The notes beneath the pieces were generated by a model. The model was not told the origin of the DNA. It saw only the letters and a list, made by a program, of their open reading frames with translations, and searched no databases. From Pseudomonadota bacterium (lineage in GTDB: Bacteria; Pseudomonadota; Gammaproteobacteria; Burkholderiales; Thiobacillaceae): 36,012 bases of DNA. The stretch's first letter is position 1. The number at the start of each line of letters is the position of its first letter. Made by a program: the position numbers and the translations under genes. The stretch is taken from positions 1 through 36,012 of the forward strand of contig JAJXUA010000011.1 in the NCBI GenBank assembly GCA_021783275.1, read 5' to 3'. Below are positions 4,636 to 25,662 of the stretch, in pieces.

Positions 4636-6075
4636 TCAATAGCGGACGCGTACCCGATACGTCAGCGTCGTCTTGCCGTTGGCCGGAATGTTGATGTTCC
4701 ATTCAGCCGTACCTGACGCCGCTTGGGTGTGGGGATGCGACTCGCTCACCATGGCCCAGTCGCCCGGCATGGGTTCGCGCACCGTCACGGTGACGGCTTC
4801 GGCCTTGGCGTTTTTCAACACCACTTCGTAGGCAGATTCATACACGTAGTTGTAGCGGCTGGTGCCTGCCAGTTTCTGGAATGCGGTCTGTTTCCTGTCC
4901 GCCGTCACATCAAAAGCATCGCCCAGCTTCATGCGCACGGTTTCGTTCTTGGGCGTGTGATCAATGCTGTCTTCGCCGACGAACTGGGCGTTGCCCTGAC
5001 TGTCTTTCTTGTAGACCCGGATCACGCCCTTGGGCAGAGGTATACCCAGCCCGTCCCCCTTGTTGCTGAATTCGACGAACACACCGACCTTGATTTTCTG
5101 TCCGATTTCGCCGTGCTGAGCCGAATAGTAGTAATCCGAACCAGCCAGCAAAAACTCCTTCTTGACCGGCACTTTCGTGGCAGACATCAGGGCCACCTGC
5201 TTGGTCTGGTTTTCGGCCAGCGTCGTCGGCCGTTGCAGGGTATACAGATGATATTCAAACAGCGACTCCTGCTGCATGTCAGCCTCGGCGGCCTTCGAGG
5301 CCATCGCCATCAATTCCCTGCCTGACGGCCGGGTCTCGCGTACACGGTTGAGATCGCCGGCCACCAGTTGCAGCCTGGCATTGGGATAGGCCGCGCCACT
5401 CTGGTTGGTCAGCGTCACCCAGCCATTCAGGTCCAGCAGACTGTCATTGGCATTGATCTCGGCCACATAGTCCGCGCGCCAGCCCAGCCCGCCGGTCAGG
5501 TAGGACAATTCCAGATTCTGTGATCCGGCAGTCTGGCTCAGCAAGGAAATCACCAGCGTCGGCTGATCACGCAGCGTGTCGGGCACACCCGGAAACGCCA
5601 GGCGTCCGGGCACCCCCGTTTCAATGCGGTCGGCAAACTTGAGCACCACCCCGTTCTGTGTGGATAGCACCGTGGCGGATTCCCGTGTTTCAGCGCCCGT
5701 GGCCGGGTTCACCCGAGTGACGGCAACTTCACGGCCCACATATTTTTCCAGCAGTTTCTGTGGTGTCAGCAGGTCAAAGTCAAAATTCTGTTCCAGCAGG
5801 CGCAGGCCACCGGGGCTCGACACATTGCGCAATTGCGCAGTTTCCGGACGCATCTGCGCGGACACTTCACGCCAGGCGAGATGATTGAGCTCGCGTCCCA
5901 GATTGACCCGGCGCGCATCCTTGATCAGCGCGAGATTGTCGTTGTAGATCGTCACCGCCATGCCCTGCTGATCCGCCACCGTACTGACAGTTTCATCGCG
6001 CGGCGCCGCACCGCTGCCCTGCGCGGCCAGTAACAGACTGGTCAAAAGAAAATTGCGTACCGGCTGTTGTGTCAT
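4636..6075 (-). CDS. DUF4139-domain exported protein
   Basis: 479 residues with an N-terminal signal peptide (hydrophobic core LLTSLLLAAQGSGA, cleavage near residue 23). The rest matches the DUF4140/DUF4139 arrangement: an early VTIYNDNLALIKDARRVNL strand region, then LELSYLTGGLGWRADYVAEI and a C-terminal beta-rich part ending in TLTYRVRVRY. Members are periplasmic or cell-surface proteins of unknown biochemical function, often annotated as mucoidy-inhibitor or hypothetical. The ATG is preceded by GGAG 8 bases upstream. It ends close to pgi (convergent) and is divergent from the HDOD gene. No function is assigned. Confidence 0.85.
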   Translation of the reverse strand: MTQQPVRNFLLTSLLLAAQGSGAAPRDETVSTVADQQGMAVTIYNDNLALIKDARRVNLGRELNHLAWREVSAQMRPETAQLRNVSSPGGLRLLEQNFDFDLLTPQKLLEKYVGREVAVTRVNPATGAETRESATVLSTQNGVVLKFADRIETGVPGRLAFPGVPDTLRDQPTLVISLLSQTAGSQNLELSYLTGGLGWRADYVAEINANDSLLDLNGWVTLTNQSGAAYPNARLQLVAGDLNRVRETRPSGRELMAMASKAAEADMQQESLFEYHLYTLQRPTTLAENQTKQVALMSATKVPVKKEFLLAGSDYYYSAQHGEIGQKIKVGVFVEFSNKGDGLGIPLPKGVIRVYKKDSQGNAQFVGEDSIDHTPKNETVRMKLGDAFDVTADRKQTAFQKLAGTSRYNYVYESAYEVVLKNAKAEAVTVTVREPMPGDWAMVSESHPHTQAASGTAEWNINIPANGKTTLTYRVRVRY

Positions 6076-11617: not shown

Positions 11618-11711
11618 GGAGACATGGCCGAGTGGTTGAAGGTACTCCCCTGCTAAGGGAGCATGCGGGCTTAAACCTGCATCGAGGGTTCGAATCCCTC
11701 TGTCTCCGCCA
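11618..11711 (+). tRNA. tRNA-Ser (anticodon GCU)
   Basis: Acceptor arms GGAGACA (11618-11624) and TGTCTCC (11701-11707), G discriminator and encoded CCA (11709-11711). The anticodon stem is CTCCC/GGGAG with GCT at 11652-11654. A long variable arm identifies the serine type, and the T-arm contains GGTTCGAATCC. A TACAAT box at 11600-11605 may be its -10. Confidence 0.97.
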
Positions 11712-11750
11712 AACCCATACCCTGCGGATGGCAGATCGCAAGAATTTGCG

Positions 11751-11756
11751 TATAAT
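11751..11756 (+). promoter_or_regulatory. Consensus -10 TATAAT before tRNA-Arg
   Basis: Perfect TATAAT ending 14 bases before the tRNA-Arg 5' end. The -35 region is poor. It lies in the 59-base gap after tRNA-Ser, so tRNA-Arg probably has its own promoter. Confidence 0.6.
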
Positions 11757-11770
11757 CCGCAGCCTTCAAT

Positions 11771-11847
11771 GCGCCGGTAGCTCAGCTGGATAGAGTACTT
11801 GGCTACGAACCAAGGGGTCAGGAGTTCGAATCTCTTCCGGCGCACCA
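11771..11847 (+). tRNA. tRNA-Arg (anticodon ACG)
   Basis: Acceptor arms GCGCCGG and CCGGCGC, A discriminator and encoded CCA (11845-11847). Anticodon stem CTTGG/CCAAG with ACG at 11805-11807; the A would be edited to inosine by TadA. T-arm contains AGTTCGAATCT. 77 bases, class I. Confidence 0.97.
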
Positions 11848-12166: not shown

Positions 12167-13165
12167 GTGAGAAAAACGATACGGGCCTCGGGATGGGGGG
12201 TCCTGATGCTGGCTGTGATTTCGTCCGGTGCGCATGCAGGCACCGCGGCCGGCACGTCGATTTCCAATACGGCCACGGTCAGCTACAGCGTATTCAGCAT
12301 CCCCGCAGCCGATATCGTCTCCGCCCCGGCCAGCTTCACCGTCGATGAAATCATCTCGCTCACGCTGGCCTGGCAGGACGGCGCACCGGTCAGTACCAGC
12401 ACGCCCGATGCCGACACGCCGCTGCGTTTCACGCTGACCAACACCGGCAACGGCAGCGAGAGCTTCACCCTCACCCGCAACAACGCCCTGGTCGGTGACC
12501 AGTACGACCCGGTCAGCAGTGGGGTGTCGATTTACGTTGAGAGCAACGGCACCCCCGGCCTGCAAACCGGCGGCGGGGGCGACACGCCTTACGCCGGCAG
12601 CGTGACGCTGGCACCCAATTCGGCCTCGGTCGATGTCTACATCGTGTCCGACACCCCCGCCAGTCTCACCAACGGCGACTTCGGCGATGTGCGCCTCAGT
12701 GCCGCCTCAGCCACGCCCGGGGCTTCGGGCGCCGCCTTCGGCACAGTGCTGGGTGGCGCAGGCGACAGCGGCACCGACGCCGTGGTCGGCACGCCGCTGG
12801 CACAGGCCGACGACACCGGCCGCTACCTCGTCAGCGGCCTCGCGGTCACGGTCAACAAAACCCGCATCAGCCCGGTGAACCCGGCCGACCTCACGCCCGG
12901 CGCGGTCGTGACCTATCGCATCGTGGTGACGCTCTCTGGCAGCGGCACGGCGGTCGGTCTCGTGCTCGACGACCCCATCCCCACGGGTCTCGCTTACTTG
13001 TCTGGCAGCACCACGCTGTCCGGCAGCGCCAGCTGCTCACCCTGCACCGACGGCGTCGACGGCGACCCCGTCAGCTTCAGTGCCAATACCGTTTCGGCGA
13101 CGCTCGGCGATGTGGCCGCGCCCGCCAGTTTCACCCTCGAGTTTCAAGCTCAACTTCCCAACTGA
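12167..13165 (+). CDS. Exported DUF11-like surface protein, cluster gene 1
   Basis: 332 residues from a GTG start with GGAG 6 bases upstream. Signal peptide to about residue 24 (VLMLAVISSGAHA). The mature N-terminus has GTSISNTATVSYSV, a motif repeated in genes 3 and 4 of the cluster. The middle parallels gene 3 throughout (LTNTGNGSESFT; VDVYIVSDTPASLTNGDFGD; VSGLAVTVNK). The C-terminal 100 residues look like a DUF11 beta-sandwich (GAVVTYRIVVTLSGSGTAVG) and end on a beta-strand (ASFTLEFQAQLPN) with no anchor. It is the first gene after the sigma-54 promoter and 16 bases from gene 2. Rich in Gly/Ser/Thr and poor in Lys, as secreted structural proteins often are. Function is unknown. Confidence 0.8.
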   Translation: MRKTIRASGWGVLMLAVISSGAHAGTAAGTSISNTATVSYSVFSIPAADIVSAPASFTVDEIISLTLAWQDGAPVSTSTPDADTPLRFTLTNTGNGSESFTLTRNNALVGDQYDPVSSGVSIYVESNGTPGLQTGGGGDTPYAGSVTLAPNSASVDVYIVSDTPASLTNGDFGDVRLSAASATPGASGAAFGTVLGGAGDSGTDAVVGTPLAQADDTGRYLVSGLAVTVNKTRISPVNPADLTPGAVVTYRIVVTLSGSGTAVGLVLDDPIPTGLAYLSGSTTLSGSASCSPCTDGVDGDPVSFSANTVSATLGDVAAPASFTLEFQAQLPN

Positions 13166-13181
13166 CCAGAAAGGATTTGCC

Positions 13182-13664
13182 ATGCGTTCGTTCACCTGTC
13201 TTGCCGCCCTGCTGTTTGCCGTGTCCCTGCCGCTCCACGCCGCCCCCGGCGCGGTCGAAGTCAAGAGCGTCGCCGAGATGGACGTGGTCGTCGTCAACGC
13301 CAAAGGCGTCAAGGAAACGAAACGCCAGCCGGTGGAAAAAGCCGTGCCCGGCGACGTGGTGATCTACACCACCACGTACAAAAACCTGATCGCCAAGCCG
13401 GTCGGCAATATCGCCATCACCAACCCGGTACCCAGCGAAACCACCTATCAGGGCGGCAGTGCCAGCGGTGCGAATACCGACATCGCGTTTTCCGTCGATG
13501 GTGGCAAAACCTGGGGCACCCCCGACACACTCCGGATCACCGGCAAGGACGGCAAGGAACGCGCCGCCCTGCCCGCCGAATACACCCATATCCGCTGGAC
13601 CTATCGCGGCGAACTGCCCGCAGGCAAAAGCGGCAGCGTCAGTTTCCGGGCCATGATCAAGTAA
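13182..13664 (+). CDS. Small exported DUF11-like protein, cluster gene 2
   Basis: 160 residues with signal peptide (MRSFTCLAALLFAVSLPLHA) and AAGGA 8 bases before the ATG; longer open reading upstream overlaps gene 1 and is not needed. The mature protein is one beta-sandwich-like domain: PGDVVIYTTTYKNLIAKPVG, then NPVPSETTYQGG, then FSVDGGKTW, THIRWTYRGELPAGKSGSVS and a terminal strand SFRAMIK. The FSVDG...THIR pattern recurs at the C-terminus of gene 5, so this may be a free-standing copy of that module. No anchor is visible. It could be a subunit, a cap or a periplasmic chaperone-like partner; none of these is shown. Confidence 0.8.
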   Translation: MRSFTCLAALLFAVSLPLHAAPGAVEVKSVAEMDVVVVNAKGVKETKRQPVEKAVPGDVVIYTTTYKNLIAKPVGNIAITNPVPSETTYQGGSASGANTDIAFSVDGGKTWGTPDTLRITGKDGKERAALPAEYTHIRWTYRGELPAGKSGSVSFRAMIK

Positions 13665-13696
13665 GCATGGCGACCCGCATCCACCCCCTCCCCACG

Positions 13697-13717
13697 CCGC
13701 CGATCCTGCATCGGCGG
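13697..13717 (+). other. Hairpin in gap between cluster genes 2 and 3
   Basis: CCGCCGAT (13697-13704) and ATCGGCGG (13710-13717) form a perfect 8-bp stem with a 5-base loop, followed by TTTGTGCTT. It might partly terminate or stabilise the upstream mRNA. The rest of the 193-base gap shows only the ribosome site of gene 3. Confidence 0.5.
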
Positions 13718-13857
13718 TTTGTGCTTGCCGAGCCCATGACTGACCCGCCGCGATGGCGACAGGTCAGCGCGGGCACTGGCCCGCCAGCGGGACATGACCC
13801 ACCCCACACGCTTCATCTGCAACACCGTGTATTTCAATTTTTGACAAGGAGAACATC

Positions 13858-15108
13858 ATGAAACTCAACACTCGACGCGCACCCCCTGTTGCACGTCTGG
13901 CAGCCACAATCGCTGCCGGGCTTGCGCTCGGCGCGGCGCAGCAGGCCGCAGCATTAGGTACCGCTGCCAATACCACCATCAGCAACATTGCCACGATGAG
14001 TTATTCGGTGGGCGGTGTTGCTCAACCCAACATCGGTTCCACAGCCACCGGCAATACCAGTGGCGCAGGTGCCGCCACCACGTTCGTGGTTGACCGCAAG
14101 GTCGATCTCATCATCGCGAAGCAGGGAGGGTCGGCAACCTCGGTCACCCCGGGTCAGCTGCTCGCCGTATCAACCTTCCTGCTCACCAACCTGGGTAACG
14201 ATGTTCAGGACTTTTCCATCGGCGGTGTCAACGTGGCAACCGGTACGGTTGACCCCTTCGGCTCGACTGAAACGGACAACTTCGATGCCTCTTCCTGTAC
14301 CGTGCGCGTCGATGGTAACGCCAACGGCACTTACGAAGCTGTAAGCGACACCGCAACTTACGTCGATGAACTGGCACGCGACGGCACACGCACCGTATTT
14401 GTCCTGTGCGACATCCCGGCCACACAGGTCAATGGCGATTTTGCCGTGGGCGCGGTAACGGCGACCACACTGGTCGGCGGCAGTCCCGGGGCACCAGGCG
14501 CGGCCATCACGGAAACTGTGGGTGCGAATACCGCAGGCGTCGATACGGTGTTTGCCGATGGGAGTGGTACGGAAAGCACTGATCTGGCACGCGATGGCAC
14601 CTACACCGACCGCAACGCCTTCCTGGTGTCGTCGGCGACCTTGTCCATCAGCAAATCGGCTCAGCTGATCTGTGATCCGTTCAACAGCACGACCAACCCG
14701 AAGAACATCCCGGGAGCCATTGTGCGCTGGACGATCACCATCACCAACGCCGCCGGAGCGGGCAGTTCCGCCTCGCTGTTGCAGGTCACCGACGCGCTCA
14801 ACGCCAACACCACCTTCGATAACAACCTGGTGACAGGTGCGGGTGGCGCGGCCGGATGCGTGAGTGCGACCGGCACCCCGGAAGATGCGGCAGGCAACGG
14901 CTTCAAGCTGGATGTCACAGGCGATACCCGCCCCGGCACCTATCCGAAGTTCTTGACGACCTCAGCCAATGCCGACGGCGGTACCCACGCGGCAGGCACG
15001 GTAACCATCGACTACAGCCAGGCATTGCCGGTTGAAGCGGGGTACACCGCGGGCGAGCTGAAGGCCGGCGAGTCAGTAGTGGTGTACTTCAACGTGACCG
15101 TCAACTAA
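13858..15108 (+). CDS. Exported DUF11-like surface protein, cluster gene 3 (paralogue of gene 1)
   Basis: 416 residues; AAGGAGA 7 bases before the ATG. Signal peptide to about residue 32 (LAATIAAGLALGAAQQAAA). The mature N-terminus NTTISNIATMSYSVGGV matches gene 1, followed by TFVVDRKVDLIIAKQGG. Further shared blocks are LLTNLGNDVQDFS, TVFVLCDIPATQVNGDFAVG and FLVSSATLSISKS. The C-terminal domain NPKNIPGAIVRWTITITNAAG is DUF11-like and closely parallels a segment of gene 5 (NPKYIPGAEALYTLTVTNSG). It ends on a strand, ESVVVYFNVTVN, without anchor. Cys residues are few (about four). It lies 7 bases upstream of the large barrel gene. A structural cell-surface or filament subunit is the inference. 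Confidence 0.8.
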   Translation: MKLNTRRAPPVARLAATIAAGLALGAAQQAAALGTAANTTISNIATMSYSVGGVAQPNIGSTATGNTSGAGAATTFVVDRKVDLIIAKQGGSATSVTPGQLLAVSTFLLTNLGNDVQDFSIGGVNVATGTVDPFGSTETDNFDASSCTVRVDGNANGTYEAVSDTATYVDELARDGTRTVFVLCDIPATQVNGDFAVGAVTATTLVGGSPGAPGAAITETVGANTAGVDTVFADGSGTESTDLARDGTYTDRNAFLVSSATLSISKSAQLICDPFNSTTNPKNIPGAIVRWTITITNAAGAGSSASLLQVTDALNANTTFDNNLVTGAGGAAGCVSATGTPEDAAGNGFKLDVTGDTRPGTYPKFLTTSANADGGTHAAGTVTIDYSQALPVEAGYTAGELKAGESVVVYFNVTVN

Positions 15109-15115
15109 CAACCCC

Positions 15116-18100
15116 ATGTTGTCTGTTGGCTTCATCACCCGCCACCTCACGGTTCGCCGTGCGGGGGCGGGTTTGCGTGCGCTGGCCTTGCGGCCAGCCC
15201 GCTTTGTTGCGGGGGTGCTGCGCCTCCGCAACAAAGCGCTGCTGTGCAGTGTTGTCCTGGCCGCGTCGGCGCAGGCCGCGTTGCCGCCGAATACCAATGT
15301 CGTCAATACCGCCACCGCGAGTTACCAGGTGCTGGGCGTGCCGGTCACCACCAGTGGCAGCGTCACCTTCACCACCCCGGCGCGTGCGCCGTCGAGCATC
15401 GAGTTCCTGCAATACGTGCCGGGCGGCAGTGCCGGAACACTGGAACAGGTCAACACGCCAGAGTGCGGGGGCAACCTGCGGGCCACGCCCACTTTCCTCG
15501 GCCCACCCGCCAGCCCCCTGGTGTTGCCGGGCGTGCTGCGGCTGGCCCCCGCGACTTTATACAGTGCGGGCGATCCGGTGTTTATCCGCGTCACCGATAT
15601 CGACCAGAACCTCGATGCAGCGGCGCTCGATACGCTGACCATCAGCATCAGCACCGGCAACGGCGACAGCGAGACCGTGACGCTGAGTGAGACCGGCAAT
15701 GCCACCGGTGTGTTCATCGGCTATCTGCCGTCGTCCAGCGCGGCGACCACCCCCAGCAACTGTGCACTCGACATTCCGTCCAGCCAGTCGCTGACCGCAA
15801 AATACACCGACGACTTCGACACCAGCGATGAAGTCACTGCCGCAGCACTGGTCGATCCCTTCGGCGTGCTGTTCGATTCCGCAACCGGCGCGCCGGTGGA
15901 CGGTGCCATCGTCACCCTCATCGACACCAACAGCAATCTGCCCGCCGCCGTGTTCTGCGGCGACGGCGTCACCGTGTTGCCGCAGCCCGTGACCTCCGGC
16001 AGTACCACCGTCTGCGACCCGGTGATGACGCCTGGCGGCTACCGCTTCCCGCGCGTCGCGCCCGGCACCTACCGGCTGGCGATCACGCCGCCCGCCGGTT
16101 ACGCCTTCCCGTCGGTGGTCGCGCCGGGCGCACTGCCGCCCGGTTTCGTGATCGTCGGCGTGCCCGGCAGCGGTGCCTCATACGGCGGCACCTTCCCGCT
16201 CAATCCCGGCCCGGCGCTGCAGATCGACGTACCGCTCGATGCGTCGGCCACTGGCGACCTGCAGATCACCAAAACCGTGGCCAAATCGGTCGTCGGTGAA
16301 GGCGAATTTGTTCCCTATACGCTCAACATACGCAACGCCACCGGCGCGGTCGCCAATGCGGTGCAGATCGCCGACCGCCTGCCTGCCGGCTTCCGTTATC
16401 AATCCGGATCGGCCCGCCGCGACGGGGCTGTGCTGCCCGACCCGGCGATCACCCCGGACGGGCGCGGCCTGACCTTTAATATCGGCAACGTCGCCGCCGG
16501 GGCTTCGGTCACGCTGCTATATGCCGCCGAAGTGACCGTCGCCGCGCGCCCCGGCAAGGCCGAAAACGTCGCTTTCGCCACCGGCGGGCACACGTCCAAC
16601 ACCGCCCGCGCCAGTGTCATCGTGCGCGAAGACCTGCTGCGCTCACGCGCCATTCTGATGGGTCGCGTCATCGTCGGGGCGTGTGACGACAGCGTCTCCA
16701 ACGACGAAAATGGTCTGGCGCAGGTGCGCATCGTGCTCGAAGACGGCACGGCCATCCTCACCGACGAGCACGGCCGCTGGCACGCCGACAATATCCGTCC
16801 CGGCACGCATGTGGTGCAGCTCGACCTCGATTCGCTGCCGCCGGATTACGAAATTCAGCAGTGCGAAAAAAACAGCCGCTTCGCCGGTCGCAGCTATTCG
16901 CAGTTTGTGAATGTGCGTGGCGGCAGCCTGTGGCGCGCAGATTTCCATGTGCAGAAAAAAGCCCCGGTGGTGTATCAGCTCACCCAGCAACTCAGCGCCA
17001 CGCGCAGCGGCGGCGCGGCAGTGGCCACGCTCACGCTGAGTGGCGAGGCTGCGGTGCACAGCGTGTCAGCAACGCTGCTGCTGCCCGCGGGCAGCACGGT
17101 CGTGGCGGGCAGCGCCCGTCTGGATGGGCAGCCGACCGACGCGCTGGAACTGTCCGACGGCGTGGCAGTGCTGCGGCTCGGCGCACAGACCGGCCGCTGG
17201 ACCCACACGCTAATGCTGAACCTCGACACCCCGGCCGAGGCGGGCGCGCTGGTCAGCATGGTGCGCTTTGTGCCGCCCGGCCAGCAGGGCATCAACCTGC
17301 CCAAGGTCACTGCCGCCTGGGATGCACCGACCACGCAGACCCAGGCCGTGATTCCGCCAGCGATTCTGCACAGCGAAGCCGCTGATGCCCCCGGCACGCT
17401 GGATCGCGGACGCCGCGATGTGGCCATCCGGCCGGATGCGGTGCCACAAGTGCCGGGCAGCGACAATCGCCTGCAACTCGTTGAACAGCTGCCCTACGAC
17501 GCCGACTGGCTCGCAGCGGCGCAACCGGGCGTTGAATGGCTGCATCCGCAAACCGGCTTCCAGCCCGCGCTGCCTGCGATCAAGCTGGCGGTGAAACACG
17601 CGCCGGGCCAGCGCATCGAATTCACGGTCAACGGCACGCCGGTCGATCCCGTCAAATTTGACGGGATGGAACAGAACGCAGCGCGCACGGTGGGCCTGTC
17701 CACCTGGCGCGGCGTAGGCCTGGCCGAAGGCCGTAATGACCTGACTCTGGTGATCCGTGACGCCAGCGGTGCCGAAGTGCTGCGCGAAAGCCGCAGCGTG
17801 CATTATTCCGGCGGCCCCGACCGCGCCGAATTCGTTAGCGCGCATTCGCGTCTGCTGGCCGACGGCAAGACCCGCCCGGTCATCGCCGTACGCTTCCTCG
17901 ATCGCGATGGCCAGCCGGTGCGACGCGGTGTCAACGGCAGCTTCCAGCTCAACGCGCCGTATCAGTCGGCAAACCAGCTCGAAGCCATTCAGCGCGACCC
18001 GCTGGCCGGCAAGATCGACAACGCGCCGCGTTACGAGATTGGCCGCGACGGCATCGCGCTGATTGAACTGGCCCCGACCACGCAATCCGGCGAAGCCATT

Positions 18101-20665
18101 CTTAATTTCGATTTCGCCACGCCGACCCGTTACGGCGAGGAAGACCGTTTCGTCCGCACGCACAAAAACGAAATCCGCGTCTGGCTCGAACCCGGCCAGC
18201 GCGACTGGATCCTGGTGGGCTTTGCCGAAGGCACGGTGGGCCACAAAACCCTGTCGGGCAACGTCGCCGCCGCCAAAGCCAACGGCGATGACGAGCGCCT
18301 GTTCGACGGCAACCGCGTCGCGTTCTACGCCAAAGGCACGGTGCGCGGCGACACGCTGCTGACCGTGGCCTACGACACTGCCAAGCAGCGCGGCGACGCC
18401 GGTGCTTTTGCCAATCTCAAGCAGTTGGTCGATCCCAACCGCTTCTACACCCTGTACGGCGATTCGACCCAGCCGACCTTCGACGCGGCGAGCGCGCGCA
18501 AGCTCTACCTCAAGATCGAACGCCGCCAGTTCTATGCGCTCTTCGGCGATTACGACACGGGCCTCACCGTCGCGGAATTCGCGCGCTACAGCCGCACCGT
18601 CAACGGCCTGAAATCCGAATACCAAGGCGAAAAATTCAGTTACAACGCCTTTGCCACGATGACCGCGCAAGCCTTCGTCAAGGACGAACTGCGCGGCAAC
18701 GGCACCTCGGGCCTGTATCGCCTGACGCGCTCGGACATCATCGAAAACAGCGACACGATCCGCATCGAAACCCGCGACCGCTTCCAGTCGCAGAACATTC
18801 TCAGCAGCAAGACGCTCACCCGCTTCCTCGATTACGACATTGATTATTTAGCCGGTACCGTGTTTTTCAAATCGCCCGTACCCGAGCGCGACGCGATGTT
18901 CAACCCGGTTTACATCGTCGCCGAATACGAATCCGCCAGCAGCCAGGACGAAAAACTCACCGCCGGTGGCCGCCTCGCGTTCAAGCCCAACGCCAAAACC
19001 GAAATCGGCGCAAGCCTGGTGCGCGAAGGCAATGTCGGGGCCAGCGGCAATCTCGGCGGCGTCGATCTCACCTATCTGATGAGCGAGGCCACCCGGGTGC
19101 AGGCCGAGTTCGCCCAGAGCCAGCGCGATCTGGCTGGCATTGAATTCGAAGGTGCGGCCTGGAAAGTCGAAGCCCTGCATCACAACGAGAAACTCGACGC
19201 CAAGGCTTACATCCGCAAGCAGGAAAGCGGCTTTGGCCTGGGCCAGCAGGCGGGCAGCGAAAACGGCACGCGCAAATTCGGCGCCGAGGCGCGGCTGAAA
19301 CTGTCCGAAACGCTGCAACTCGAAGGCCAGGCCTACCGCCAGGACACGCTCTCCACCGGCGCACAGCGCGACGTGATCGAAGGCCGCGCCGACCACAAGC
19401 TCGGCACCAGCCTCACCGGGTATTACGGCGCGCGCTTCGCCCGCGATGAAGACGGCGCAGGCGTCACCCGCGACAGCAAACAGGCACTCGCCGGGGCCGC
19501 CTACGAACTGCTCGACCGCAAGCTGGTGTTGCGCGCCGCTGCCGAAATCGGCTTCGGCGAAGCCGACAGCCTCGACTTCCCGGATCGGCTGATCATCGGT
19601 GCCGACTACAAGCTGACCGAGCAGACCGTGCTGTTTGCCGAACAGGAATTCGCGCGTGGCGAGGATATTTCGGCCAACCTCACTCGCGTCGGTCTGCGCG
19701 TGGCACCGTGGACCGGCGGCGAACTCGCCGCGTCGCTGGGCAACCAGGCCAGCCTCGACAGCGGCCGCATGCACGCCGATCTGGGACTGGTGCAGAAATG
19801 GCAGATCAATGAATTCTGGCAAACCGATTTCGCTGTCACCCGGTCGCAGACTCTGCGTGCCACCGGCGTGCCGCTCAATCTCAACGTACCGCTGGCATCC
19901 GGCACCGTCGCCAACGGTGACTACACTGCATTCAGCGTCGGCGCGGCCTACAACAACACAATCTGGGGCGCCAACACCCGACTCGAATGGCGCGAAGGCG
20001 ATCTCGACGACAAGATCAATTTCATCGTCGGCATGCAGCGCACGCTCGACGCTGGCCGCGTACTGGCCGGCGGTTTCAGCTATATCGAAGACGAATCGCT
20101 GCTGCGCCGCTCGCGCAAGTTCGACGCCCGCGTCTCCTACGCCACCCGCCCGTGGGACAGCGAATGGATCTGGCTCAACCGTGTGGACTACATCGACGAA
20201 CTGACCGAAGACGCCACCCTGACGTCGCGCGCGCAAAAACTCGTCAACAACAGCAACTGGAACTGGATGCCCAACCGCCGTACCCAGGTGGCCCTGCAGT
20301 TCGGCGCGAAGTACGTGCTCGACGACCTCAACGGCGGCGAGTACAGCGGCTTCACCAGCCTCGTCGGCACCGAAATCCGCCGCGACATCACCCAGACCTG
20401 GGATGTCGGCGCACACGTCTCACGGCTCGATTCCTGGAACAGCGAAATCAGCCAGACCGGCTTTGGCGTCTCGGTCGGCCACAGCCTGATGGAAAATCTG
20501 TGGGTCGCCGTCGGCTACAATTTTGCCGGCTTCGACGACGCCGATTTCAGCGGCGCCGACACCCGCACCCAGGGCCCTTATTTCAGCGTCCGACTCAAAG
20601 TCGATCAGGACACGCTGGGATTGAACAACCGGATGAACGGCGTGTTTGGCGATACGCGACCATGA
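15116..20665 (+). CDS. Large DUF11/beta-barrel outer-membrane protein, cluster gene 4
   Basis: 1849 residues from the ATG at 15116. An N-terminal signal (core ALLCSVVLAASAQA) is followed by PNTNVVNTATASYQVLGVP, the motif of genes 1 and 3. Then come beta-rich modules, a DUF11 domain (about 380-495: VPYTLNIRNATGAVANAVQI), a carboxypeptidase-regulatory-like domain (about 511-578: TAILTDEHGRWHADNIRPG) and an Ig/invasin-like region (about 800-1000). A conserved zone with RFYTLYGDST and RRQFYALFGDYDTG lies near 1110-1145. From about 1280 to the end, alternating polar/hydrophobic strands with many Tyr/Trp/Phe suggest an outer-membrane beta-barrel (penultimate strand GPYFSVRLKVD). The start is uncertain: no Shine-Dalgarno, three hairpins inside the first 120 bases, and a GTG at 15215 would give an ordinary signal peptide. 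Function is unknown; it may display or export its neighbours. Confidence 0.8.
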   Translation: MLSVGFITRHLTVRRAGAGLRALALRPARFVAGVLRLRNKALLCSVVLAASAQAALPPNTNVVNTATASYQVLGVPVTTSGSVTFTTPARAPSSIEFLQYVPGGSAGTLEQVNTPECGGNLRATPTFLGPPASPLVLPGVLRLAPATLYSAGDPVFIRVTDIDQNLDAAALDTLTISISTGNGDSETVTLSETGNATGVFIGYLPSSSAATTPSNCALDIPSSQSLTAKYTDDFDTSDEVTAAALVDPFGVLFDSATGAPVDGAIVTLIDTNSNLPAAVFCGDGVTVLPQPVTSGSTTVCDPVMTPGGYRFPRVAPGTYRLAITPPAGYAFPSVVAPGALPPGFVIVGVPGSGASYGGTFPLNPGPALQIDVPLDASATGDLQITKTVAKSVVGEGEFVPYTLNIRNATGAVANAVQIADRLPAGFRYQSGSARRDGAVLPDPAITPDGRGLTFNIGNVAAGASVTLLYAAEVTVAARPGKAENVAFATGGHTSNTARASVIVREDLLRSRAILMGRVIVGACDDSVSNDENGLAQVRIVLEDGTAILTDEHGRWHADNIRPGTHVVQLDLDSLPPDYEIQQCEKNSRFAGRSYSQFVNVRGGSLWRADFHVQKKAPVVYQLTQQLSATRSGGAAVATLTLSGEAAVHSVSATLLLPAGSTVVAGSARLDGQPTDALELSDGVAVLRLGAQTGRWTHTLMLNLDTPAEAGALVSMVRFVPPGQQGINLPKVTAAWDAPTTQTQAVIPPAILHSEAADAPGTLDRGRRDVAIRPDAVPQVPGSDNRLQLVEQLPYDADWLAAAQPGVEWLHPQTGFQPALPAIKLAVKHAPGQRIEFTVNGTPVDPVKFDGMEQNAARTVGLSTWRGVGLAEGRNDLTLVIRDASGAEVLRESRSVHYSGGPDRAEFVSAHSRLLADGKTRPVIAVRFLDRDGQPVRRGVNGSFQLNAPYQSANQLEAIQRDPLAGKIDNAPRYEIGRDGIALIELAPTTQSGEAILNFDFATPTRYGEEDRFVRTHKNEIRVWLEPGQRDWILVGFAEGTVGHKTLSGNVAAAKANGDDERLFDGNRVAFYAKGTVRGDTLLTVAYDTAKQRGDAGAFANLKQLVDPNRFYTLYGDSTQPTFDAASARKLYLKIERRQFYALFGDYDTGLTVAEFARYSRTVNGLKSEYQGEKFSYNAFATMTAQAFVKDELRGNGTSGLYRLTRSDIIENSDTIRIETRDRFQSQNILSSKTLTRFLDYDIDYLAGTVFFKSPVPERDAMFNPVYIVAEYESASSQDEKLTAGGRLAFKPNAKTEIGASLVREGNVGASGNLGGVDLTYLMSEATRVQAEFAQSQRDLAGIEFEGAAWKVEALHHNEKLDAKAYIRKQESGFGLGQQAGSENGTRKFGAEARLKLSETLQLEGQAYRQDTLSTGAQRDVIEGRADHKLGTSLTGYYGARFARDEDGAGVTRDSKQALAGAAYELLDRKLVLRAAAEIGFGEADSLDFPDRLIIGADYKLTEQTVLFAEQEFARGEDISANLTRVGLRVAPWTGGELAASLGNQASLDSGRMHADLGLVQKWQINEFWQTDFAVTRSQTLRATGVPLNLNVPLASGTVANGDYTAFSVGAAYNNTIWGANTRLEWREGDLDDKINFIVGMQRTLDAGRVLAGGFSYIEDESLLRRSRKFDARVSYATRPWDSEWIWLNRVDYIDELTEDATLTSRAQKLVNNSNWNWMPNRRTQVALQFGAKYVLDDLNGGEYSGFTSLVGTEIRRDITQTWDVGAHVSRLDSWNSEISQTGFGVSVGHSLMENLWVAVGYNFAGFDDADFSGADTRTQGPYFSVRLKVDQDTLGLNNRMNGVFGDTRP
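15138..15237 (+). repeat. Three consecutive strong hairpins at the 5' end of cluster gene 4
   Basis: Hairpin A (15138-15171): CACGG-TTCG-CCGTG topped by a UUCG loop, with outer CCCGCC/GGCGGG. Hairpin B (15181-15198): GCTGGCC/GGCCAGC with a 4-base loop. Hairpin C (15201-15237): GCTTTGTTGCGG / CCGCAACAAAGC, 12 perfect pairs. No T-run follows. They may control translation or mRNA processing, or be a REP-like insertion that was read into the gene. Confidence 0.65.
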
Positions 20666-23319
20666 TGGAATTCACGATGAACAGATATTTGCTAACTTTG
20701 CCCAGCGTCCGGAGGTTGACACGGGCCGACAGACTGCTGTCCTGCCATCCTGCCCCCGGTCTGCGCCGCCTGGCCTGCGCGTGGCTCATGGCGACGTTGG
20801 CAGCGCCAGCCTGGGCACTGACCGTTCCGGCCACCCAGGATTTGAGCTGTGCGCTGGCGCGTCAATCACCGTTGAACTGTACCGCCAATGATTTCACGGT
20901 AGGCGCCACTTTCAGCGCGGCGCCGGGGACCGCGCCATTTTGTGTCGCCGGGCAATCGTTTTCGTTCGAAGTAGACCTGAATCTCACCAGCAATAGTCCC
21001 GACCGTTACGACGTTGGCTTTTTTGTCGGCCAAAACGGGAACAACCCGCAAACCGATGCTTCACCCACCGGCTGTTCGGTCGGCACGGTGCCAACCACTG
21101 CGATTCCTGCTCCCCCGCCGACCTTGACCCAGCCATGGTTCAAGGCTGCAGGCAACGCGGGCAACCTGTGCAGCGATTTTCTGGGTAACGGCGCAAGCAC
21201 GACCATTACCTTTAACCAGATCAAGGTGCAGTGTCAGGGCGATAGTACGGGTGCCCTGACGATTCCCTATTTGCTGGCGTATTCACAGTCTTCTGGCGAC
21301 GCATGCACCGGACCCGGAGACGTCAAGCCCGGTTCAGGGTCTAAATGCCAGGTCAATACCGCGGCCCCCGTGTCGGGGCTCGTTGCCGTGTTTGCAGGTG
21401 GCTACGTTGACGTCACCAAGCAAACCACGCCCGACGGCGACAACCAGCCGTTTATCTTTACCGCGACCGGTCCATTGGGCGCCAAGGTCATTGCCCTGAC
21501 CGGTGCAGTGCTGACACCGACTTCGGCAACCGGCGGCACCTATTCGCCCTCCAGTATCGCAACGGCGACCAACACCGCCAGCGCAACCCTGCGCGACGGC
21601 GAGACGGTTCGCTTCTACATGAACGTCCTCCCTATCGTTCGCACCCTGACCATTACCGAGACAGCGGCATCCAATTGGGAAAGCACGGCGGCGATCAGTT
21701 GCGCAGCGGTGACGGGTTCACCCCTTCTGATCACCAACAACGCCACCCGCACCCTAACGGCGGGACTCAGCACGACCAACATTGCCGCCGCATGCACCGT
21801 CACTAACACCAAACGTCCGCGCATCACGCTGGCCAAGAGTGTCGGTGGGCGGGTCAGCGTCAGCGACCAGTTCACGGTCAGTGCCAGTGGCGGCGGCACC
21901 CTGACCGGCAGCACATCGGCAACCACCTCAGGCACCGCTAGCACCGCCAGCACCCTCTTTTACAGCACACCCTCTACAGCGCTGACGATTGCCGATTCCA
22001 AGGCCGCTGGCCCCACGCCACTGTCCGAATACGACAGCCGCCTGACCTGCAGCAACGCGTTCACCGGCCCGGGTGCGACGCCCGGCGCCAGTCTGCCCAG
22101 CAATGTGGCGACGACCAGCGCGAGCCTCACCCCCGCACCGGGTGATGACCTCGTCTGTACCTTCACCAACACGCCGCGACCGCGCATCACCCTGCAGAAA
22201 ATAATCGATCCGGCCGGCGGCGGACGTGTCGCCGTCACCGACCAGTTCACCCTGGCGGTGACGGGTGCTACACCGGTGATTACCACCGGAATCGGAAACA
22301 GCATCACCTCTGCCGGGGTGTCGCTGGTGACCACAGCCGGCGTGGCGCTGACCCTGTCGGAAAGCGCCGCCGGTACCACCGACTTGGCGAATTACGCAGC
22401 CGCCTACAGCTGCACCAACAGCGGCAGCGGGGGAACGACCGTCCCGCCCGGCAGCGGCACCAGCTTTGTCGTCGCGCCCGTCAATAACGATGTCATCGCC
22501 TGCAACTTCACCAACACGCGCCGCTCGGCCGAACTCACGCTAGCCAAGCGCTGGACCAATGCCACCCTGAACAACGCCGTCATCATCTCGGCTATTGGAC
22601 TCAACAGCCGCAACTTCGCTGCCACCGCCAACACCCGCAATGAAACCGATACCGACACCGGCACGATGACGATCTATGCCGGCGAAACGGTCGCCCTCGC
22701 GGAAGCCTTCACCACCGGGCTACCCCTTGACTATGCGAAATCGCTGACCTGCACCGGCAACAACGGCGCGCTCAGCCATATACCGGACAGCCTCACAGGC
22801 ACGCTCGCAATCAACGGCGCGGATACCCAGATCACCTGTACCTTCAGCAACGACAAGCTGATGCCTTCACTCACCTTCCTGAAGAGCGTCCAGGTCACGT
22901 CCGATCCCGTCAATCTGGCGCTCAACCCCAAATACATTCCGGGCGCGGAAGCGCTTTATACGCTGACGGTCACCAACTCGGGGCCTGGCGCGGTCGACAA
23001 CACCTCGCTCATCATCGTCGATCCGGTTCCGGTCAACACCGTCCTGTTCACCGGCAACCTGGGCGGCGGCGCGCCTTTCAATTTCAGCAACGGCACGCTC
23101 CCCAGTGGCGTCGTGTGCAACTTCAACACGCTGGGCGATTTCACCGACTGCGTGGACTTTTCAGTGGATGGCGTCAACTGGACCTATGTGCCCAACGGCA
23201 GTTTCGACCCGGCCGTCACCCATATCCGTTTTACCCCGGTCGGAGCCATGAATGCTGATGCGATAGCCGGCAATCCTTCGCCCAGTTTCAGCCTGCAATT
23301 CAGGGTACGCGTGAAGTAA
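20662..23319 (+). CDS. Exported multi-module beta protein with Cys pairs, cluster gene 5
   Basis: 885 residues from the ATG that overlaps the stop of gene 4 (ATGA), implying translational coupling; an ATG at 20677 is an alternative. The signal peptide has a long basic N-region before the core LMATLAAPAWA. After a Cys-containing N-terminal domain come three or four tandem prealbumin/SpaA-like modules. Each opens with ITLAK, ITLQK or LTLAK and closes with C-T/N-F-T/S-N (VCTFTNTPRP, ACNFTNTRRS, TCTFSNDK), with a second Cys in LTCSN, YSCTN or LTCTG; disulfides are likely. The C-terminal DUF11-like domain begins NPKYIPGAEALYTLTVTNSG and ends FSVDGVNW...THIRF...FSLQFRVRVK. No anchor is seen. Probably a surface stalk or adhesin-like protein; function unknown. 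Confidence 0.8.
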   Translation: MMEFTMNRYLLTLPSVRRLTRADRLLSCHPAPGLRRLACAWLMATLAAPAWALTVPATQDLSCALARQSPLNCTANDFTVGATFSAAPGTAPFCVAGQSFSFEVDLNLTSNSPDRYDVGFFVGQNGNNPQTDASPTGCSVGTVPTTAIPAPPPTLTQPWFKAAGNAGNLCSDFLGNGASTTITFNQIKVQCQGDSTGALTIPYLLAYSQSSGDACTGPGDVKPGSGSKCQVNTAAPVSGLVAVFAGGYVDVTKQTTPDGDNQPFIFTATGPLGAKVIALTGAVLTPTSATGGTYSPSSIATATNTASATLRDGETVRFYMNVLPIVRTLTITETAASNWESTAAISCAAVTGSPLLITNNATRTLTAGLSTTNIAAACTVTNTKRPRITLAKSVGGRVSVSDQFTVSASGGGTLTGSTSATTSGTASTASTLFYSTPSTALTIADSKAAGPTPLSEYDSRLTCSNAFTGPGATPGASLPSNVATTSASLTPAPGDDLVCTFTNTPRPRITLQKIIDPAGGGRVAVTDQFTLAVTGATPVITTGIGNSITSAGVSLVTTAGVALTLSESAAGTTDLANYAAAYSCTNSGSGGTTVPPGSGTSFVVAPVNNDVIACNFTNTRRSAELTLAKRWTNATLNNAVIISAIGLNSRNFAATANTRNETDTDTGTMTIYAGETVALAEAFTTGLPLDYAKSLTCTGNNGALSHIPDSLTGTLAINGADTQITCTFSNDKLMPSLTFLKSVQVTSDPVNLALNPKYIPGAEALYTLTVTNSGPGAVDNTSLIIVDPVPVNTVLFTGNLGGGAPFNFSNGTLPSGVVCNFNTLGDFTDCVDFSVDGVNWTYVPNGSFDPAVTHIRFTPVGAMNADAIAGNPSPSFSLQFRVRVK

Positions 23320-23394: not shown

Positions 23395-25026
23395 ATGAAT
23401 CCAGCCGCAACCGCACCGGCCCAAACCGGCGCATCGCCTTTGGCGCGCGACGTCAAAAAACGCCGCACCTTCGCGATCATCTCCCACCCCGACGCCGGTA
23501 AAACCACACTCACCGAAAAGCTGCTGCTGTTCGGCGGCGCCATTCAAATGGCGGGCACGGTCAAGGCCAAAAAAAGCGGCAAATTCGCCACTTCGGACTG
23601 GATGGCAGTGGAGCAGGAACGCGGCATTTCGGTCGCCTCCTCCGTGATGCAGTTTTCCTACGGCGACTGCGTGTTCAACCTGCTGGACACCCCCGGCCAC
23701 AAGGATTTTTCGGAAGACACCTACCGCGTGCTCACCGCCGTGGACGCGGCGATCATGGTGGTAGACGCGGCCAAGGGTGTGGAAGAACAGACGATCAAAT
23801 TGCTCGAAGTGTGCCGGATGCGGGCGACGCCGATCATCACCTTCATCAACAAGCTCGACCGCGAAGTGCGCGAGCCGCTCGAATTGCTCGACGAGATCGA
23901 ATCCATCCTGAAAATCCACTGCGCGCCGGTGACCTGGCCGATCGGCATGGGCAAGCGTTTTCAGGGTGTGTACCACCTCGACCGCGAGGAAATCCTGCGC
24001 TTCAAGGCCGGCGAGGAAAACGCCGGGCAAACGTTTGAATCGCTGCAAGGCTTGGGCGAAGCGGGCTTGCGCGAACTGTTTCCGCTGGAGGCCGACGCGC
24101 TGCTCGGCGAAATCGAATTGGTGCGCGGCGCGGGCGTGGGCTTCTCGCTGGATGAATTTCTGGCGGGCAAGCAAACGCCCGTATTCTTCGGTTCCGGGAT
24201 CAACAATTTCGGCGTGCGCGAAGTGCTGGCCGCGCTGGCCGACTGGGCGCCCGCGCCGCTGTCGCGCGAAGCGGTCGAGCGCGTGGTCGAACCCACCGAA
24301 GCCAAATTCACCGGCTTCGTGTTCAAGATCCAGGCCAACATGGACCCGAATCACCGCGACCGGATTGCCTTCTTCCGCGTCTGCTCCGGCCGCTACAGTC
24401 CCGGCATGAAAGTGCGCCACCGCCGCACCGGCAAGGACATGAAAATCGCCAACGCTGTCGTCTTCATGGCCAACGAGCGCACGCGCATGGAAGACGCGGT
24501 GGCGGGCGACATCATCGGCATCCACAACCACGGCCAGTTGCACATCGGCGACACCCTCACCGAAGGCGAGGCGCTGCAATACAAGGGCATCCCCTACTTC
24601 GCCCCCGAACTGTTTTCCAAACCGCGCCTGCGCGACCCGCTACGCGCCAAACAGCTGAACAAGGGCTTGCTCGAACTCGGCGAAGAAGGCGCAGTGCAGG
24701 TGTTCGAACCCTTCGCCGACAACGTGCTGCTGATCGGTGCCGTCGGCCCGCTGCAATTCGAGATCGTCGCCCACCGCCTGCGCACCGAATACGGCGTCGA
24801 TGCCAGCTTCGAAACCGCCGGCATCCATACCGCGCGCTGGGTCACCTGCCCCGACGCCCCGCATCTCGCCGAATTCACCAAAGCGAATTCGCTACGATTG
24901 GCGAAGGACGTCGATGGCAATCTGGTGTATCTGGCGGATACGCGGGTGAATTTGCAGTTGGCGCAGGAACGCTGGCCCAAGGTCGCGTTCCATGACACGC
25001 GGGAACATGGGCAGGTGATGGGTTGA
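23395..25026 (+). CDS. prfC: Peptide chain release factor 3
   Basis: 543 residues, slightly longer than E. coli RF3 (529) through an Ala/Pro/Thr-rich N-terminal tail. The GTPase motifs are all present: G1 SHPDAGKTT (30-38), the switch I motif [12 protein letters not shown]3 [14 protein letters not shown] and G4 NKLDRE. The RF3-specific domains II-III follow ([33 protein letters not shown]). It recycles RF1 and RF2 from the ribosome after peptide release, using GTP in the cytosol. It is distinguished from EF-G by length and by these C-terminal motifs. The brnT promoter follows its stop directly. Confidence 0.97.
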
Positions 25027-25064: not shown

Positions 25065-25367
25065 ATGATTGATTTCTCGACGGTCACAGGGTTCGACTGG
25101 GACGCGGGCAATGAACGCAAGAATGCCGACGCGCACGGGGTCAGCCAGACCGAAGCGGAGCAGGTTTTCTTCAACCAGCCTTTGATCGTGACACCGGATG
25201 AGCAACACAGTGCGCGCGAGTTACGCATTCGCGCACTGGGCATCACCAACGCAGGCCGGCTTCTGGCCCTCTTTTTCACGATGCGGGCCGACGGCAGCCT
25301 GATACGGGTGATCTCGGCACGCGACATGCACAGAAAGGAGCGCAAGGAGTATGAGCAAACGACTTAA
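25065..25367 (+). CDS. brnT: BrnT-family toxin of type II toxin-antitoxin system
   Basis: 100 residues. It matches the BrnT layout: early F-x-WD (TGFDWDAGNERKNADAHGVS), then EAEQVFFNQPL, an ALGITNAGRLLALFFT strand pair and a final IRVISARDMHRKERKEYE. The family toxin is a ribonuclease of RelE-like fold that inhibits translation. The ATG has no Shine-Dalgarno and lies just after the operator palindrome, so a nearly leaderless transcript is likely. It overlaps brnA by 17 bases. Toxin first, antitoxin second is the normal BrnTA order. Confidence 0.9.
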   Translation: MIDFSTVTGFDWDAGNERKNADAHGVSQTEAEQVFFNQPLIVTPDEQHSARELRIRALGITNAGRLLALFFTMRADGSLIRVISARDMHRKERKEYEQTT

Positions 25368-25662
25368 GCCCCTGCCCCGCTTCGCCAGCGAGGCGGAAGA
25401 ACGGGCATTCTGGGAAGCGCCCGGCAATGACAGCACCGCTTATTTCGATGCGTCAAAATCGGTGCGCGTCGTATTTCCCAACCTCAAGGCAACGACGACT
25501 TCGATTTCCTTGCGCCTGCCCGACGCCCTGCTAACGCACATCAAGGCGATGGCGAACAGGCTGGATGTGCCCTACCAGTCGTTGATGAAACTCTGGCTGG
25601 CCGAGAAACTGGTCGAAGCCGAGAAACAAACCGCTGCCGCCAAAAGACTGGCGACGCGCTGA
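25351..25662 (+). CDS. brnA: BrnA-like / CopG-family antitoxin
   Basis: 103 residues. The N-terminal region with FASEAEERAFWEAPGNDSTA is typical of antitoxins that wrap the BrnT toxin (CopG_antitoxin, PF12441). A C-terminal ribbon-helix-helix DNA-binding part follows (about 49-90: TTSISLRLPDALLTHIKAMA, then YQSLMKLWLAEKL). AAAGGAG lies about 10 bases before the ATG, inside the toxin gene. It neutralises BrnT and should repress the pair at the palindrome upstream. Confidence 0.88.
   Translation: MSKRLKPLPRFASEAEERAFWEAPGNDSTAYFDASKSVRVVFPNLKATTTSISLRLPDALLTHIKAMANRLDVPYQSLMKLWLAEKLVEAEKQTAAAKRLATR

Follow-up and report, generated by a model that had tools for sequence, protein, structure and literature searches.

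A five-gene cluster of DUF11-related proteins in a Thiobacillaceae genome: a putative donor-strand surface fibre with its own barrel

Genes and features of the locus

Here, we describe a cluster of five genes (g1–g5) that may encode a surface fibre, in which DUF11 domains lacking one strand would be completed by strands from neighbouring proteins. The cluster comes from the draft genome (2.53 Mb) of a Pseudomonadota bacterium from the family Thiobacillaceae (assembly GCA_021783275.1), where it is found on contig JAJXUA010000011.1; this entire contig (36,012 bases) was analysed and is called the window below. The five genes follow one another on the + strand at positions 12167–23319, 3' of two tRNA genes, and all five products begin with signal-peptide-like segments, as read by eye. 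This agrees with an earlier note on the same DNA, which had reported five consecutive + strand genes for exported-looking, beta-rich proteins.

Herein, "donor" denotes an Asn-bearing strand at the apparent mature N-terminus, while "acceptor" denotes a C-terminal DUF11 domain ending before such a strand. The gene g1 (12167–13165, on the + strand like all other features of the cluster; 332 aa, GTG start) encodes an exported-looking subunit having both: a donor strand opening the apparent mature protein (12242–12292, GTSISNTATVSYSV, with Asn34) and a C-terminal acceptor (12839–13162), i.e., a DUF11 domain without the last strand, in which Lys231 and Asp269 are retained. Its paralogue g3 (13858–15108, 416 aa), 31% identical to g1 in the alignment, is likewise a donor and acceptor subunit, with the donor strand at 13960–14010 (NTTISNIATMSYSV, Asn43) and the C-terminal acceptor domain at 14641–15105. 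Between them lies g2 (13182–13664, 160 aa), an exported-looking single acceptor module with no donor and with Asn replacing the catalytic Asp. The ATG at 13182 was taken as the start of g2, and a longer open reading frame from 13080 was rejected as a mechanical extension. Both the pair of paralogues and the free module had been recognized in the earlier note.

The largest gene, g4 (15116–20665, 1849 aa), encodes a putative outer-membrane anchor. Its product carries a donor strand (15278–15340, LPPNTNVVNTATASYQV, Asn64; E 4.8e-9 to a donor profile trained on other genes), immunoglobulin-like (Ig-like) and DUF11 domains, including an internal DUF11 (CLIPPER) domain at 16256–16585 (residues 381–490; Pfam PF01345, E 1.4e-14), and a C-terminal domain of a conserved barrel family (18260–20650). 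The start of g5 (20662–23319, 885 aa) overlaps the g4 stop in an ATGA sequence. The product of g5 is a putative tip adhesin with prealbumin-like SpaA_3/SpaA_4 modules (Pfam) and 20 Cys, in line with the previously described Cys-rich multi-module protein coupled to the barrel gene. The C-terminal domain of g5 (22870–23316) is a probable acceptor, judging by its 45% identity to the tip-type domain from locus L099 (Lxxx and Gxxx are our labels for loci and genomes; G000 is the own genome of the window). Under these assignments, g1 and g3 are donor and acceptor proteins, g2 is an acceptor, g4 is a donor barrel and g5 is an acceptor by a looser rule.

Family assignments of the five proteins differ. 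Those of g1 and g4 score above the cut-offs of both PF01345 and TIGR01451, while g2, a single DUF11-like module, does so for TIGR01451 only and g5 stays below the TIGR01451 cut-off. The g3 protein gave no PF01345 match at E 0.5 and matches our local DUF11 profile at 4e-8; both g1 and g3 match TIGR04226 below its cut-off. At E <= 0.5, the only Pfam matches in g4 are DUF11, DUF7927, SdrD_B, SpaA and fn3_3. Residues 139–274 of g4 (window 15530–15937) also show a partial NCBIfam match (E 6e-8, far below the cut-off) to the anammox S-layer glycoprotein Kustd1514.

Acceptor ends: DUF11 domains one strand short

Barrel neighbourhoods were read in 58 of 60 sources (L034 and L107 were dropped, having no barrel by the profile and the gene caller). 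Loci were placed in class II when either of the two nearest upstream genes encoded a protein of >1100 aa with at least three DUF11 matches (23 of the 58), and the remaining 35 formed class I. This rule does not fully coincide with the barrel tree, which places L082–L084, L102 and L106, class I by the rule, beside the class II loci and puts L028 and L087 with the non-class-II loci. Gene calls in relatives came from a simple script rather than a gene finder, the barrels of L027, L099 and L101, split between frames, were left as they are, and signal cleavage was set by a crude rule that is wrong for some rows (e.g., the g3-like protein of L079).

For the comparison of domain ends, we used a DUF11 profile of 115 positions derived from 212 internal domains of class II giants; no class I protein was included, and the seed query, the internal domain of g4, is itself absent from the alignment. 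The profile consensus has Lys at position 5, Asp at 39 and Asn at 104, and where all three positions could be aligned (130 giant domains), these residues occur in 108, 121 and 122 cases, respectively. The crystal structure of a CLIPPER domain has a Lys715–Asn806 bond, with Asp748 as the presumed catalyst (PMC12617251). Consequently, the strand bearing Asn belongs to the same domain as the Lys.

Among 83 complete partner proteins of class I, 52 have a DUF11 match (E <= 1e-3) that leaves at most three C-terminal residues uncovered, and in all of these 52 the match stops at profile positions 90–96 (51 at 90–94, of which 25 at 92 and 17 at 93). Thus, judged by their sequences, these C-terminal domains end before the Asn strand and are one strand short. 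Internal domains with such an end are absent from the class II giants, the source of the profile (0/212), and are infrequent in class I (10/143). Pfam gives a similar picture: its DUF11 match in g1 covers positions 8–83 of 114 and ends at residue 329 of 332, and in six of seven tip-type proteins it stops at 84 of 114, one residue from the C-terminus, the seventh having no match. A looser strand pattern was found at the C-terminus of 60/83 class I partners vs. 1/25 class II partners and 22/377 other genes.

As a control, we inspected nine genomes that lack a barrel match and yielded 24 complete DUF11 proteins; in two more such genomes, no complete DUF11 protein was found. None of the 24 showed a truncated end or a donor, and the four proteins with DUF11 within 20 residues of the C-terminus all end at positions 109–112.

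Donor strands at mature N-termini

The strand absent from the acceptors corresponds to positions 99–110 of the DUF11 profile, with the consensus GTTVSNTATVSS. Sequence comparison shows this strand, Asn included, at the front of the mature g1, g3 and g4 proteins, whose apparent mature starts read GTAAGTSISNTATVSYSV, GTAANTTISNIATMSYSV and LPPNTNVVNTATASYQV, respectively. Only 1/410 other genes has the donor motif within the first 150 residues. As the regular expression for the donor contains Asn, its presence in 30/30 cases is largely by construction; the place of this residue at profile position 104 is not.

A donor profile was trained on 30 mid-size subunits and applied at E <= 1e-3 unless stated otherwise. 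It matched 33 of 40 mid-size subunits (the 30 seeds are among the 40), 17/35 class I barrels and 0/23 class II barrels, along with 1/23 class II giants, 0/26 small modules and 0/24 downstream proteins. Two of 411 other genes were matched, and both are members of such clusters (L106 and L099). At E <= 0.05, the numbers grew to 21 class I barrels, four small modules, one downstream protein and 15 other genes.

We also joined the mature N-terminus of each protein behind its C-terminal domain and compared the profile score with those of shuffled tails. The native tail beat all 50 shuffles in 16/26 donor-positive proteins vs. 0/26 others, the gain for g1 being 13.2 bits. A joined match reaching position 108 or beyond was seen in 25/26 donor-positive proteins and 3/26 others; this is a weak measure, since 487/1300 of the tails shuffled from donor-positive proteins get as far.

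In the AlphaFold model of g1, the C-terminal domain (residues 225–332) is of fair quality, with block means of the predicted local distance difference test (pLDDT) of 56–84 and a drop to 40 at residues 291–300. Seven strands are seen there, and three residues follow the last of them; residues 1–60 have no structure (pLDDT ~30). A Foldseek search with this model returned RrgB, the Jo.In domain of RrgA and the CLIPPER structure 9ifr at probability 1.0 and weak E-values (2e-3 to 7e-3). The two best E-values belonged to collagen adhesin CNA (probability 0.84 and 0.72), and unrelated aminopeptidases were also among the matches.

Distribution of donors, acceptors and isopeptide residues

The role table of 36 class I loci holds a donor and acceptor subunit in 25 loci, a small acceptor in 17, a large acceptor-only protein in 14 and a donor barrel in 18. 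Barrels having only a donor, as well as small and tip proteins having only an acceptor, are unmatched halves that cannot close within one chain, which argues for pairing between proteins.

Such halves are also found away from the barrel. Genome G123 encodes seven acceptor-only proteins with a truncated end at 90–93 on four contigs apart from the one with the barrel locus, and the five of them that were scanned have GEVED (one), SdrD_B (three) or DUF5979 (one) domains in front. The front domains of tip-type proteins beside barrels vary as well (fn3 in L070, DUF7933 in L022, a P-domain in L080), and the C-terminal domain of g5 is common to L099, L022, L070, L068 and L081. Varied fronts with one shared end are the look that would be expected of tip adhesins with a single docking domain. 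A single other strong DUF11 protein is encoded in the own genome (contig C11, L122 5913–9707). It was tried as a candidate for such unlinked cargo and was not counted; it ends in what we take to be RTX-like glycine-rich repeats, so that it probably exits by another route.

At profile column 39, fibre and tip acceptors have Asp in 36/37 cases and Glu in the remaining one, while small modules have Asp in 1/15 and Asn in 10/15. A Lys motif, scored with the same loose pattern, is present in 36/37 fibre and tip acceptors and 13/15 small modules. Thus, the C-terminal fibre and tip acceptors keep Lys and Asp and end before Asn, so that the three residues of an intramolecular CLIPPER bond do not occur together in one domain. 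Because Asn lies either on a second polypeptide or at the opposite end of the acceptor chain itself, an isopeptide bond, if formed, would link the two halves. Modules of the g2 type without Asp suggest reversible binding instead, and could, quite tentatively, be regarded as a placeholder or cap.

Gene sets around the barrel and the barrel family

The gene set of the window is a recurring one. A small one-domain DUF11 protein is encoded within five genes upstream of the barrel in 26/35 class I loci, DUF11 occurs in only 2/302 other genes of barrel loci, and the order g1-like, g2-like, g3-like, barrel is identical in the window, L021, L066 and L068. The co-occurrence check proposed in the earlier note thus came out in its favour, since other genomes, annotated plasmids included, show these gene families and their order again beside the barrel. 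As for class II, its giants (L030, L031, L065, L077, L089–L094 and others) lie directly upstream of an OmpA-barrel protein and have ~235–240 residues behind the last DUF11 match, often with the motif CCYxLxIExExFWRRG. A portion of this C-terminal part aligns with residues 246–580 of g4, and the pair of a giant and an OmpA-barrel protein looks like a split g4.

A barrel profile made from the last 800 residues of the g4 family (E <= 1e-10) matches 56/370 sampled genomes of the class, i.e., approximately one in seven, class II loci without a donor being included. The search with g4 gave matches in 12/60 genomes (the own genome counted), and two full-length relatives, 53–54% identical in the best segment, were found in metagenome-assembled genomes of Sideroxydans. 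Among the 36 genomes listed for the same genus, the own one included, six match in the barrel region, and one more has a match confined to a short N-terminal part. In the tree of 58 barrels, which has three main groups, the barrel of the window falls into a well supported group of 19, and barrels from the same genus scatter over different groups.

Searches with single barrels match plasmids of Acinetobacter, a cyanobacterium and alphaproteobacteria, among others, whose records annotate the barrel as a DUF11 protein, TonB-dependent receptor, OmpA family or hypothetical protein. Since it is found on plasmids (L105, L108, L109 and L106, from Acinetobacter haemolyticus, a conjugative plasmid of Sinorhizobium meliloti, Pacificitalea and Picosynechococcus), the barrel can be mobile. 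Two contigs from a viral collection (L110 and L111) also have a barrel gene and may be host DNA rather than phage; no relative was found when this collection was scanned with g2 and with query A2. A further barrel match, on contig C2 of G155 (461443–463992), lies inside an open frame of 11,777 residues.

No Pfam or NCBIfam family is named for the barrel part of g4, and no autotransporter or TpsB/POTRA domain was found in g4 with either collection at E <= 0.5. In many relatives, the N-terminal domains are separated from the barrel by one to three OmpA domains (found with a local profile, and with Pfam in the three scanned). Since OmpA domains bind peptidoglycan, the region that immediately precedes the barrel should lie in the periplasm. 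An OmpA-matching gene is found within two genes 3' of the barrel in L021, L022, L025, L074, L086, L087 and L105, in the first two directly behind it; none stands beside g4, and three weak OmpA matches lie elsewhere in the own genome. Pfam reports OMP_b-brl in one of the three relatives scanned (L031), and the barrel profile weakly matches solved OmpT porins (E 2e-4 to 3e-4). Counting strands by hydrophobic alternation was abandoned as not discriminating (53 peaks vs. a mean of 42 and a maximum of 50 for shuffled columns). Taken together, family homology, the OmpA domains and these weak porin matches suggest that the C-terminal region of g4 is an outer-membrane barrel, as the earlier note had predicted, although the structure model is of low confidence (see below).

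Flanking genes

The cluster ends at g5. The gene that follows, at 23395, presumably encodes peptide chain release factor 3, judging by its sequence, and behind it lies a pair of BrnT toxin and CopG-type antitoxin genes (window 25065–25662). This pair, together with a tetratricopeptide repeat protein with a LapB-type zinc ribbon and sugar-nucleotide enzymes further downstream, looks unrelated to g1–g5, and so do phosphoglucose isomerase, an exonuclease and an RNA methyltransferase upstream. Genes for tRNA-Ser and tRNA-Arg are found just 5' of g1 (window 11618–11847), and the system is patchy in the genus; tRNA genes are a usual site of acquired islands. A DUF4139 protein encoded on the – strand (window 4636–6075) has a DUF11-like end (profile 20–92, E 4e-4), with the match two residues from its C-terminus (...TLTYRVRVRY), much like the acceptor ends.

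A fibre assembled by donor strands as the most probable explanation

On the basis of gene and protein sequences, we consider it rather probable that g1–g5 encode a donor-strand surface fibre, probably sealed by isopeptide bonds, with variable tips and a barrel of its own. In such a fibre, g1 and g3, with the donor strand right after the signal peptide and the truncated DUF11 acceptor at the end, would join head to tail. Having a donor only, g4 would cap the fibre base, with its C-terminal barrel in the outer membrane, and the acceptor-only g5 would be the distal tip adhesin, like FimH of chaperone-usher pili; the polarity of the fibre would be set in this way. Each joint would probably be closed by a spontaneous inter-chain Lys–Asn isopeptide bond, since fibre and tip acceptors keep Lys and the catalytic Asp while Asn sits on the donor strand. 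The small acceptor g2, without Asp, may keep a donor occupied by reversible binding until a covalent partner takes its place. The main evidence for one assembled structure is this split-domain logic, in which the strand missing from C-termini matches that at N-termini; it did not appear in the earlier note. The latter had proposed one machine or surface layer: a conserved multi-gene surface system is supported, and a fibre fits it better than a layer.

Several observations weigh against this explanation. Even at E 0.05, 14/35 class I barrels lack a donor match, some of their N-termini being cut or split, and the two closest relatives, L021 and L022, have barrels with a degraded motif that lacks Asn. 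In the joining test, g3 gained 0.2 bits, below its best shuffle. Of the 83 class I partners, 31 fall outside the 52 with a truncated end at the C-terminus (23 have a longer tail and eight have no match at E 1e-3); some of these (g5, L022 and the L068 tip) share the strand pattern with a divergent domain, and some are frame-split barrels or giants. Among the 23, the small modules of L023–L027, L084 and L085 reach positions 95–105 and then continue for 4–23 extra residues. In g5, the profile match stops 61 residues before the protein end, and its acceptor role is probable because of its likeness to other tip domains, such as that of L099, whose profile match ends at 92. The g1 model is poor over residues 1–224, and strand pairing is neither shown nor excluded by it. 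An AlphaFold model of g4 residues 790–1849 from five sequences has ~30 antiparallel strands at low confidence (pLDDT 47, predicted template modelling score 0.28) and was not relied on; the barrel fold and the role of the barrel as an anchor or pore are the weakest parts of our explanation. No usher, chaperone or sortase family was found among the Pfam and NCBIfam matches of the five proteins. Finally, all counts derive from related genes and are not independent.

The best surviving alternative is that the truncated C-terminal DUF11 serves as a sorting tag and is recognised by the barrel, which would be a secretion pore for several cargoes, with the N-terminal motif being merely a strand of the next Ig-like domain. 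Variable cargo with one common C-terminus, the G123 proteins unlinked to the barrel and a dedicated barrel preceded by OmpA domains in many relatives would all suit such a secretion route. Still, we regard it as unlikely: it leaves unexplained why the missing strand, with its Asn, is found at the mature N-terminus of subunits and many barrels, and why fibre and tip acceptors keep Lys and Asp while the small module has lost Asp.

It is less likely still that circular permutation accounts for g1 and g3, each of these DUF11 proteins completing its own end with its own N-terminal strand and remaining a separate surface protein without polymerisation. Both proteins do hold both halves. However, donor barrels have no acceptor, and the small, tip-type and unlinked G123 proteins are acceptor-only and thus need a partner; the g1 model also gives no place to the N-terminal strand, a weak argument given the poor quality of this half. 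Least of all do we believe in a loose group of ordinary DUF11 fibrillar adhesins whose ends are an artefact of DUF11 model limits, for, although DUF11 arrays are common in surface proteins (PMC12617251), the crystal structure has the Lys and Asn strands in one domain, and complete C-terminal DUF11 domains are what the inspected genomes without a barrel match have.

Going beyond the window, it is tempting to suppose that the donor-strand fibre represents a new class of Gram-negative fibres without usher, chaperone or sortase families, an extension that we put forward with less conviction than the fibre itself. Here, natural split isopeptide domains would polymerise via donor strands and seal themselves covalently, a small module lacking catalysis would keep donors open, unlinked tips would dock via the same acceptor, and a large outer-membrane barrel linked to peptidoglycan would anchor or pass the fibre. 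If true, this would explain the purpose of many DUF11 proteins of unknown function, and a Gram-negative covalent pilus would become directly testable with small soluble proteins. The 90–94 ending also provides a simple rule for spotting unlinked adhesins in a genome.

Comparison with known systems

We found no characterised system with this gene set among the literature matches listed for DUF11, OmpA, donor-strand and isopeptide topics (open-access articles, by the starts of their abstracts), in keeping with the earlier note, which knew of no named system with this composition. Donor-strand assembly as such is known in chaperone-usher pili, type V pili and archaea. Among open-access articles, the one that mentions both donor strands and DUF11 concerns the fibres of Bacillus spores. 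TasA, by the title of a study (PMC9674648), is also said to be assembled by donor strands.

Type V (Bacteroidales) pili are made from lipoprotein precursors with Cys at the cleavage site. Unlike these, g1 and g3 have no Cys at their apparent signal cleavage sites. No NCBIfam match to a type IX C-terminal signal domain was found in the five proteins at E <= 0.5.

An acceptor-only tip adhesin, an outer-membrane barrel and polarity would be shared by chaperone-usher pili and the proposed fibre. Chaperone-usher pili (type 1 and P), whose donor-strand complementation is described in PMC9715654, also resemble it in having Ig-like subunits without a strand and an N-terminal donor strand. Both the lack of the C-terminal strand and the presence of the N-terminal one are seen here in the sequences, and we infer that the two halves pair between chains. 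However, g4 has no match to the FimD usher family (Pfam, E <= 0.5), and the five proteins, to which the search was confined, have no match to a PapD-type chaperone (Pfam and NCBIfam). Instead, we see a CnaA-like DUF11 fold, a probable covalent joint and a barrel of an unnamed family.

Sortase-assembled pili of Gram-positive bacteria (RrgB) are alike in their isopeptide-containing Ig-like subunits, and g1 matches RrgB by fold, whereas the joint proposed here would be spontaneous. No LPXTG-type sorting signal was found: the last residues of g1, g2, g3 and g5 read as a beta-strand-like stretch. Sulfolobus threads (Saci_0406) have an N-terminal donor strand along with a proposed intermolecular isopeptide bond (PMC9715654). 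They differ in being archaeal, with one subunit, no Pfam domain and no barrel, and their bond is non-canonical, from the N-terminal Asp to Asn two subunits along.

The CLIPPER adhesins (e.g., Acinetobacter B9T28_05395; PDB 9ifr) share with the cluster the domain family and the catalytic Asp and, if our explanation is true, the Lys–Asn bond and OmpA-like anchoring (PMC12617251). In CLIPPER adhesins, however, the domain is complete and the bond lies within one long chain, whereas here the domain is split between proteins. In SpyTag/SpyCatcher and other tag/catcher pairs, a split isopeptide domain reportedly closes covalently when the strand meets the body (PMC5487036 and PMC6539128). These pairs are laboratory constructs; the cluster described here, if our explanation is true, would be their natural counterpart, a CnaA-type version used for assembly.

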